In this document: one piece after another, positions 5,324 to 25,144 of the stretch
How positions within the stretch are numbered: position 1 is the stretch's first letter
How the letters are laid out: each line of letters starts with the position of its first letter
Origin: Methanocaldococcus infernus ME
GTDB lineage: Archaea > AGJL01 > Methanococci > Methanococcales > Methanocaldococcaceae
NCBI RefSeq assembly: GCF_000092305.1
Contig: NC_014122.1
Span: 1,227,390-1,291,389 of the forward strand
Reading direction: 5' to 3'
DNA length: 64,000 bases
The notes under the pieces: generated by a model
The model's input: the letters and a program-made list of their open reading frames with translations, nothing else
What the model was told of the DNA's origin: nothing
Databases searched by the model: none
Position numbers and translations under genes: made by a program

Positions 5324-5905
5324 ATGAAGCCCAAGGTTGTGGTTGTAGGAAGGAGTAATGTAGGAAAATCTACCTTAGTTAGACTACTTACAGGAGATAA
5401 GAGAGTTAGAGTTGGAAAGAGGCCAGGGGTTACATTAAGGATAAATGAGTATGAGCTAAAGAACTACACCTTAGTAGACATGCCTGGTTTTGGTTTTATA
5501 AAAGGAAGACCTAAAGAAATTGAAGAGAGAGTTAAAGATAATATAGTTAGATATTTAGAAGAGAATGCTGATCAGATAGCTACAGCTATTCAAATCATAG
5601 ACGGAAAATCCTTCATAGAGATAGTTGAAAGATGGAAAGATAAAGAGATTCCAATAGATATAGAGATGTTTGACTTCATCACAGAGTTAAAAATTTCTCC
5701 TATTTTAGTAGTGAATAAAATGGATAAGATAAAGAAAAATGAGAGAGATAAGATATTAAATTCTATCTGTGAGTATCTAAAAATGTCTCCACCCTGGCAT
5801 CAGTGGAAATTTATAGTGCCAGCATGCTTAAAGAAGGGAGAAGGATTAGATGAAATTAAAAGATTAATTAATAAGAGAGTTGAAGTATTTAAGAAATTAA
5901 AATGA
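5324..5905 (+). CDS. engB: Ribosome-biogenesis type GTPase EngB/YihA
   Basis: 193 residues. G1 is GRSNVGKST (residues 8-16), G2 the conserved T of RPGVTL, G3 DMPGFG, G4 NKMDK, G5 near PAC. This is the TrmE-Era-EngA-EngB class member EngB, needed for large-subunit assembly in bacteria and present in euryarchaea. The SD GGATGAAAC precedes ATG 5324. The stop is 1 bp before the ACA box of the candidate minus-strand RNA at 5907-5976. Confidence 0.93.
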
Positions 5906-5906
5906 G

Positions 5907-5976
5907 TGTCCCCTCTCCTATCCTACTCCTCCCTCATCTCTGGGCAAGATCAGGGGAGTGGGCCAGAGAGGGAAAA
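5907..5976 (-). ncRNA. Candidate H/ACA guide sRNA (pseudouridylation guide)
   Basis: A GC-rich island between AT-rich genes. Read on the minus strand it forms one H/ACA-like hairpin: lower stem CCCTCTC (5972-5966) with GAGAGGG (917-911 of the 5000s), left pocket TGGCCC, upper stem ACTC/GAGT with further C-G pairs, then CTGA...GATGA elements arranged like a K-turn, a UCU/AGA stem and a small loop. The right pocket is AGGATAG, and ACA (5909-5907) directly follows the stem. From ACA to the base of the upper stem is 15 nt, matching the 14-16 nt rule for H/ACA guides. A TATA-like element at about 5996-6005 lies ~25 nt upstream of the predicted 5' end. The plus strand folds too, but without ACA or K-turn. 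Confidence 0.6.
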
Positions 5977-6032
5977 TTATCTTTTAATTTGTGATAATAT
6001 ATAAAGGTAATCTTTTGTTGTAAGGTGAAACT

Positions 6033-7076
6033 ATGAAATTCTTTAATCGAGAAAAAGAAATTAGAGAGATTCTTTCTATTTTGGAGTTTGAGCCTAATTT
6101 TATCTATTTTATTTATGGGCCTATTAATAGTGGGAAAACAGCTTTAATTAACGAAGTTATCAATAAGCTTGATGAGAAATATGTGGTATTTTATTTTGAC
6201 TTGAGAGAGATTTTTATTTCTAAATATGAAGACTTTATAGAGGTTTTGTTTGAGGAGTATGAAGAAGATAAAAATCCTATAGAATTGGTTAAGAGCTTAG
6301 TTAAAGACTCTTCCGTTCTCTTTGGAATTCCTACACCAAAGAATACGTTAGAAACTTTACTGAGTAAAAAGAAACCTAAAAATGTTTTTAAATATATAAC
6401 TAATATTTTATTGGAGCTTAGGAAAGAAGGAAAACAACCAATTATTATCTTAGACGAGCTTCAGAAGATAGGAGATTTAAAAATTAACGGCTTTTTGATT
6501 TATGAGCTTTTTAATTACTTCATAAGTTTAACTAAGCATAAACACCTATGTCACGTCTTTTGCCTATCTTCAGATTCTTTATTTATTGAGAAGGTTTATA
6601 GTGAAGCAATGTTAAACGGTAGAGCTAAATATTTATTAGTTGATGACTTTGATAAAGAAACAGCTTTAAGATTTATGGATTTTTTAGCTAAAAACATTTT
6701 AAATAAAAAACTCTCAAATAAAGAAAAAGAATTAATTTATTCCTACGTTGGAGGGAAACCTGTAGATATAATTTACGTTATCCAAGAACTCAAAATTAAA
6801 AATCTAAAAGAGATTCTAAATTACTTATTAAGCGATGCTAAACAAAAACTAAAATACTTCTTAGAAGACGTTAAAGAGAAAAATGAAACTCTTTATAAAG
6901 AAATCTTGGACGCTTTAAAAGTATTTAAAGATAGTTATGAGGTTGAAGATATAACAATAAATAAAAAGGTTAGAGAGCTCTTAGTTAAGAGAAATATTCT
7001 ATTTTTGGATCCCATTAGAGGTACTTTAAAGCCCCAAAGCTTTTTAGTTTGGAGAGCTATAAAAAAGATTATATAA
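6033..7076 (+). CDS. Archaeal STAND-type AAA+ ATPase (MJ-type ATPase family)
   Basis: 347 residues. The N-terminal FNREKEI motif, Walker [10 protein letters not shown] (~residues 28-36), Walker [10 protein letters not shown] and a C-terminal winged-helix-like segment define the archaeal ATPase family abundant in Methanocaldococcus (COG1672-like). Functions are unknown; many members are linked to mobile DNA or stress. SD GGTGAAACT fits ATG 6033. It stands alone between the candidate sRNA and wtpA. It contains about a dozen CG dinucleotides, while neighbouring core genes have almost none, which suggests later acquisition. Confidence 0.85.
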
Positions 7077-20735: not shown

Positions 20736-21089
20736 ATGGCAATATATGTTAAGTTTAAAGTTCCAGAGGATTTACAAAAAGAGCTTTTAGATGCTGTAGC
20801 TAAAGCAGAGAAGATAAGAAAAGGAGCTAATGAGGTTACTAAAGCAGTTGAGAGGAAACAGGCTAAGCTTGTTATCATAGCTGAAGATGTCAAGCCAGAG
20901 GAGATAGTTGCTCACCTTCCAGTTTTATGTGAAGAAAAAGGAATTCCTTATGCTTATGTAGCTTCAAAACAAGATTTAGGAAAGGCTGCAGGAATTGAAG
21001 TTGCTGCCTCTTCAGTAGCTATTATAAAGCCAGCAAATGAAGAAGAGTTAAATGCACTAATTGAAAAAATAAATGCTCTTAAACAATAA
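20736..21089 (+). CDS. rpl7ae: Ribosomal protein L7Ae (eL8), K-turn binding protein
   Basis: 117 residues; classic L7Ae ([51 protein letters not shown]). It is a large-subunit protein and also a core protein of box C/D and H/ACA sRNPs and RNase P, through K-turn recognition; this makes it a partner for the guide RNA proposed at 5907-5976. SD GGAGGGA 6 nt before ATG 20736. First of an L7Ae-eS28-eL24 cluster. Confidence 0.97.
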
Positions 21090-25066: not shown

Positions 25067-25144
25067 GGGCCTGTGGGGTAGCCTGGTCTATCCTTTGGGA
25101 TTTGGGATCCTGAGACCCCAGTTCAAATCTGGGCAGGCCCACCA
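25067..25144 (+). tRNA. tRNA-Pro (TGG), CCA encoded
   Basis: Acceptor GGGCCTG pairs with CAGGCCC; anticodon loop TTTGGGA with anticodon TGG followed by G37. The anticodon stem has two wobble pairs. Discriminator A at 25141, CCA 25142-25144. 14 bp after tRNA-Thr. Confidence 0.93.

Follow-up and report, generated by a model that had tools for sequence, protein, structure and literature searches.

The stretch between engB and an ATPase-like ORF in Methanocaldococcus infernus ME encodes, with a probability of about 95%, a guide RNA of the archaeal box H/ACA type with a single hairpin, on the minus strand as the sequence-only reading had proposed. It lies in a piece of DNA of 64,000 nucleotides (the window; C1:1227390-1291389 of the single-contig genome of 1,328,194 bases), and the case for it is made by its match to an H/ACA descriptor, a covariance model, covariation in its stems, and the retention of its ACA box, K-turn and pocket in 13 genomes. 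Among the genomes examined, the guide RNA family is, as judged from sequence searches, restricted to Methanocaldococcus. Its main substrate may be U26 of tRNA-Pro(UGG), which is the best-supported candidate and to which we give even odds.

Architecture and genomic setting of the hairpin

The hairpin core, delimited by a descriptor scan and by folding, comprises 67 nt (window 5907-5973, minus strand; Table 1). It consists of a lower stem of 9 bp, guide strands of 5 nt (5') and 6 nt (3'), and a GA stem of 10 steps if the two sheared G.A pairs are counted; this stem has one bulged A in M. infernus and one G.G mismatch in most relatives. The CUGA (5') and GAUGA (3') strands, previously described as K-turn-like, form a K-turn with tandem G.A pairs and the bulge G-A-U. 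The 15-nt distance proposed between the ACA and the top of the pocket is exact, since AGGAUAGGAGAGGGG spans 15 nt from the upper-stem closing pair to the ACA; in most relatives, 14 nt separate the ACA from the base of the GA stem. According to Toffano-Nioche et al. (PMC4652768), the '10/6/9' class, into which the M. infernus hairpin falls, is a productive architecture, and the productive distance from the ACA to the start of pairing is 14-15 nt. In what follows, guide nucleotides are numbered from window 5980 (minus strand) as 1, with the 5' guide at 17-21 and the 3' guide at 57-62.

Table 1. Features of the window discussed in the text; the hairpin elements are listed in their 5'-to-3' order on the minus strand.
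Feature	Position in window	Strand	Basis or remark
engB (EngB GTPase)	5324-5905	+	NCBIfam match
Lower stem, 5' strand UCCCUCUCU	5965-5973	-	Descriptor; pairs with 5910-5918; compensatory changes across the genus
5' guide strand GGCCC	5960-5964	-	Descriptor, alignment; invariant in 13 homologs
GA stem, 5' strand ACUCCCCU + GA	5950-5959	-	Descriptor
Apical part UCUUGCCCAGA (two pairs and loop)	5939-5949	-	Descriptor, fold
K-turn bulge GAU (3 nt)	5936-5938	-	Descriptor; same bulge in homologs
GA stem, 3' strand GAGGGAGGAGU, one bulged A	5925-5935	-	Descriptor
3' guide strand AGGAUA	5919-5924	-	Descriptor, alignment, target pairing
Lower stem, 3' strand GGAGAGGGG	5910-5918	-	Descriptor, covariation
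ACA box	5907-5909	-	Descriptor, alignment; kept in 13/13 homologs
TTTATATA, possible promoter element	5998-6005	-	Weak evidence
ATPase-like ORF	6033-7076	+	
L7Ae gene	20745-21083	+	K-turn-binding protein of H/ACA RNPs
tRNA-Pro(UGG), best-supported candidate target	25067-25144	+	5' arm CUAUCCU 25088-25094; U26 at 25095; 3' arm GGG 25097-25099

When the two strands of the hairpin are compared, neither an ACA box nor a K-turn is present on the plus strand; only the minus strand, convergent with engB, has both. The minus strand also has the stronger fold, with z = -3.2 and 1 of 200 shuffles equally good, compared with z = -1.8 for the plus strand. The G+C content reaches up to 60% in the hairpin stretch in a genome of 34% G+C. 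The TTTATATA element, located about 25 nt upstream of the stem, had been taken as the guide's own TATA. It is indeed well placed (6005-5998), but TATATA is palindromic and may instead belong to the ORF that starts at 6033 on the plus strand, and its promoter score is nearly matched by that of an AT-rich control (9 vs 8). Because the flanks are AT-rich, the promoter comparison cannot separate the strands; thus, with TATATA the same on both strands and the flanks scoring similarly, TTTATATA is not counted as evidence.

A strict H/ACA descriptor applied to both strands of all 1,328,194 bases gave three matches, and the hairpin shares the top score of 38. On 30 shuffled genomes (100-base blocks, dinucleotides kept), even a relaxed descriptor had a maximum of 34, reached once, and never attained 38. 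Further good matches in M. infernus are C1:51926-51992 (-), C1:680627-680697 (+) and the lower-scoring C1:534708-534779 (+), all of which have the same GAU bulge and CCCC/GGGG-ACA base as the hairpin. The guide at C1:680627-680697 matches 23S nt 2018 (E. coli 1915) in helix 69 and is the homolog of a reported M. jannaschii guide for position 2015; by finding this known target, it acts as the method's positive control. The other two are H/ACA-like hairpins with a GAU-GA K-turn and an ACA, and C1:51926-51992 has a likely ortholog in the relative G002 (C1:293091-293156). Elsewhere in the genome, GC-rich C1:848903-849041 looks like a tRNA carrying an intron in its anticodon loop, missed by ARAGORN without intron search, and C1:885966-886082 resembles a CRISPR array, with two copies of the GTAAAATAACGCCCCTAAGGGGATGGAAAC repeat around a GC-rich spacer.

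Distribution and conservation within Methanocaldococcus

A nucleotide search of relatives with the M. infernus element did not retrieve any full-length homolog, the short matches that it gave being due to chance, and the family was reached by combining pattern search and a covariance model. Pattern searches identified two relatives with the same pocket, and the first covariance model was built from three sequences, with the M. infernus row trimmed by two nucleotides for alignment. The covariance search matched 13 of the 14 Methanocaldococcus genomes at E of about 1e-11 to 1e-19, the M. infernus copy at 4.5e-12, and a second model, built from the 13 sequences without trimming, agreed. Outside the genus, there was no covariance-model match with the GGCCC/AGGAU pocket, and the weaker matches inspected are the helix 69 guide. 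In G002, the guide was not detected by the covariance model, which covered all of the assembly, or by a local scan of about 68% of it.

The alignment of the 13 homologs shows what is preserved. The 3' guide reads [A/C]GGAU[A/G], and the K-turn is kept along with the ACA in all 13, so the retention in close relatives on which the sequence-only reading had made its proposal depend is borne out. Across the stems, 8 of 22 pairs are altered on both sides, including 4 of the 9 in the lower stem. The covariation score of 0.256 compares with 0.147 +/- 0.017 for shuffles, none of 500 of which came as high, and slid structures scored at most 0.131. In addition, neighbours are unrelated between genomes where compared: the hairpin is flanked by EngB and the ATPase-like ORF in M. 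infernus, by a GSA aminotransferase and a phosphatase-like ORF in G006, and by EF-2 in G007 and G008.

Candidate targets of the pocket

For a site to be accepted as a target, pairing had to begin at the upper stem itself, without mismatches and with no more than a single G-U, and the search covered 1,085 uridines of 23S, 16S and 5S rRNA and the intronless tRNAs. The sole acceptable site is U26 of tRNA-Pro(UGG), encoded in the window, which the sequence-only reading had not considered. Its pairing, CUAUCCU-UU-GGG, comprises eight pairs (seven Watson-Crick) and three, starts 15 nt from the ACA in M. infernus and 14 nt in most relatives, and is equalled by 1% of shuffled guides. In all ten genomes having both sequences, the 3' guide makes 6/6 Watson-Crick pairs with tRNA-Pro, and in G006 a U-to-C change in the tRNA is accompanied by an A-to-G change in the guide, converting an A-U into a G-C pair. 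Furthermore, G002, which has no detectable guide, carries C26 in tRNA-Pro with G at position 44, where the others have A. In the 23S tree, G002 is nested in the genus beside M. infernus (100/99 support), thus the absence of both the guide and U26 is best read as derived. The 23S segment of another relative, G003, sits on a very long branch (0.26) and may be chimeric or from a partial assembly, so conclusions based on G003 are held loosely. In Sulfolobus, psi35 of tRNA-Tyr is guided by an H/ACA RNA, which is a precedent for a tRNA substrate (PMC4652768).

Several observations weigh against tRNA-Pro. G17 and G18, invariant in 13/13 homologs, have no useful pairing there, lying opposite A31 and U32, and G003 has C as its top 3' guide nucleotide and would lose the pair with U25. 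The covariation amounts to one event in ten genomes, expected by chance about 1 in 10 times, and the guide loss concerns one branch; tRNA-Pro(UGG) was not found in the assemblies of G003, G004 and G007, which limits the covariation test to ten genomes. Moreover, U26 is present in tRNA-Pro of Methanococcaceae, yet no such guide was found there.

If tRNA-Pro is the substrate, we infer from the sequence the following pathway. The guide RNA would be transcribed from the minus strand and assembled into an RNP, in which L7Ae would bind the K-turn and Cbf5-Nop10-Gar1 the stems and the ACA box; Cbf5, Nop10 and L7Ae are encoded in the genome, L7Ae within the window. The pocket would then present the bound RNA for isomerisation of one uridine. 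The 3' guide AGGAUA would pair with UAUCCU of tRNA-Pro, at the end of the D-loop and the 3' strand of the D-stem, and CCC of the 5' guide with G28-G30. This pairing would leave U26 and U27 free, so that U26 would become pseudouridine, strengthening the U26-A44 pair atop the anticodon stem.

The target originally proposed was a site in domain V of 23S rRNA, and the stretch CCAUCC-UG-GGCC does exist just 3' of the peptidyl-transferase ring (23S nt 2607-2622, CUUCCCAUCC-UG-GGCC, with the target U at nt 2617, E. coli U2522), but it fits only in another register, with two pocket nucleotides unpaired. That U2617 alone is the guide's target, the tRNA-Pro match being a chance likeness of D-arm AUCCUUUGGG to rRNA AUCCUGGGCC, is a tentative alternative that we hold to be rather doubtful. 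In its favour, U2617 ranks top once the two pocket-top nucleotides are omitted, and the joined guide strands GGCCCAGGAU are the perfect reverse complement of 23S AUCCUGGGCC, a match to rRNA found for 0.8% of shuffled 10-mers. The site forms 6+6 pairs in G006 and 6+5 in G007, GGCC and GGAU are invariant in the guide strands, and the invariant G17 and G18 pair only with 23S (C2526-C2527); the genus also has GGGCC in 23S, where the Methanococcaceae sequences seen have GGGUC. However, this register leaves C21 and A57, the top nucleotides of each guide strand, unpaired, would require an 11th, mismatched GA-stem step, and places the first pair 13 nt from the ACA in relatives, outside the range of 14-15 nt, and such folds are unproductive by published rules (PMC4652768). 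The permutation p is 0.08 for M. infernus, whose pairing has an A.C mismatch beyond four pairs; the sixth 3' guide nucleotide is A in most genomes, mismatched to C2517; and G002 retains the 23S site but not the guide. Since the tRNA-Pro and 23S sites are alike, their p-values are not independent. Among other candidates, 23S U135 drops out when mismatches are disallowed, as it has one within the 3' guide, and a genome-wide search with the pattern AUCCU-UN-GGGCC, restricted to Watson-Crick pairs, gave no match.

It is also conceivable, but unlikely, that one pocket serves both tRNA-Pro U26 and 23S U2522 in slightly different pairing registers. The conserved pocket nucleotides correspond to the union of what the two targets need, namely C21, A57 and position 62 for the tRNA and G17 and G18 for 23S, and one Haloferax pocket for both psi1956 and psi1958 is a proposed precedent (PMC2584109, PMC4652768). 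Nevertheless, given the likeness of the two sites, one match may be a by-product of the other, and the 23S register violates the published geometry rules. In its fullest and equally improbable form, dual modification would couple the tRNA and the peptidyl-transferase neighbourhood, with a guide derived from the helix 69 guide by duplication and pocket rewriting and lost where U26-A44 became C26-G44. Least of all do we credit a GC-rich hairpin without guide function, a terminator or chance fold in an AT-rich genome, which would suit the position at the 3' end of engB, a place where terminators are found, and the ease with which GC-rich islands catch the eye in such genomes, but which is opposed by the ACA, K-turn and pocket kept in 13 genomes in differing contexts, by stem covariation, and by homologs that, in the relatives inspected, do not follow engB. 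Riboswitch, terminator and coding readings were likewise rejected on the conserved pocket, K-turn and ACA, the stem covariation and the differing neighbour genes.

If tRNA-Pro U26, the preferred substrate, is the true one, the guide loss together with the change of U26-A44 to C26-G44 would show what the modification is worth, namely the stabilisation of one pair in a hyperthermophile tRNA. If 23S U2522 is the substrate, a pseudouridine would lie near the peptidyl-transferase ring; we know of none at this position in other organisms.

Relation to known guide RNAs

No family in Rfam 15 accepts the M. infernus copy or the relatives tested at its gathering score, and the hits to microRNA families and to Pab91 fall well short of their thresholds and are chance matches of GC-rich sequence. 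Earlier GC-content screens of M. jannaschii may already have picked up the transcript. The family is thus a new H/ACA guide RNA, absent from Rfam and possibly with an unusual substrate. It spans Methanocaldococcus, with a member at C1:986082-986151 of G008, the genome taken to be M. jannaschii, and is therefore testable in cultured organisms.

By scaffold, the nearest known RNAs are the third hairpin of HgcG/Pab40 (RF00064) and its M. jannaschii relative guiding psi2015-2016 in helix 69. The third HgcG/Pab40 hairpin and the new family have in common a CCCC/GGGG lower stem, a GA stem, a GAU-GA K-turn and a similar apical GGC..GCC loop. However, the M. infernus copy does not match RF00064, and the best family member (G003) reaches 38 bits where the gathering score is 77, a threshold that the helix 69 guide homolog also misses with 51.9 bits. 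The pockets differ as well, being GGCCC/AGGAU in the family and GGGUUA/GUUAC in the helix 69 guide, as compared with the third Pab40 hairpin. M. infernus has a separate helix 69 guide, the ortholog of this hairpin (C1:680627-680697, +), and the shared apical sequence suggests that this guide is a paralog of the family with another pocket.

Pab91 (RF02795), the P. abyssi guide for 23S psi2685, is alike in its single H/ACA hairpin, CCCUC-rich lower stem and ACA, but differs in pocket and target, and the M. infernus copy scores 15.5 bits against its gathering score of 71. The Sulfolobales tRNA-Tyr psi35 guide (Sso1), compared by description only, is likewise an archaeal H/ACA RNA with a tRNA substrate, although the tRNA and the target position are different (PMC4652768). 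If tRNA-Pro U26 is the substrate of the new family, RNA-guided tRNA pseudouridylation would extend from Sulfolobales to a euryarchaeon.
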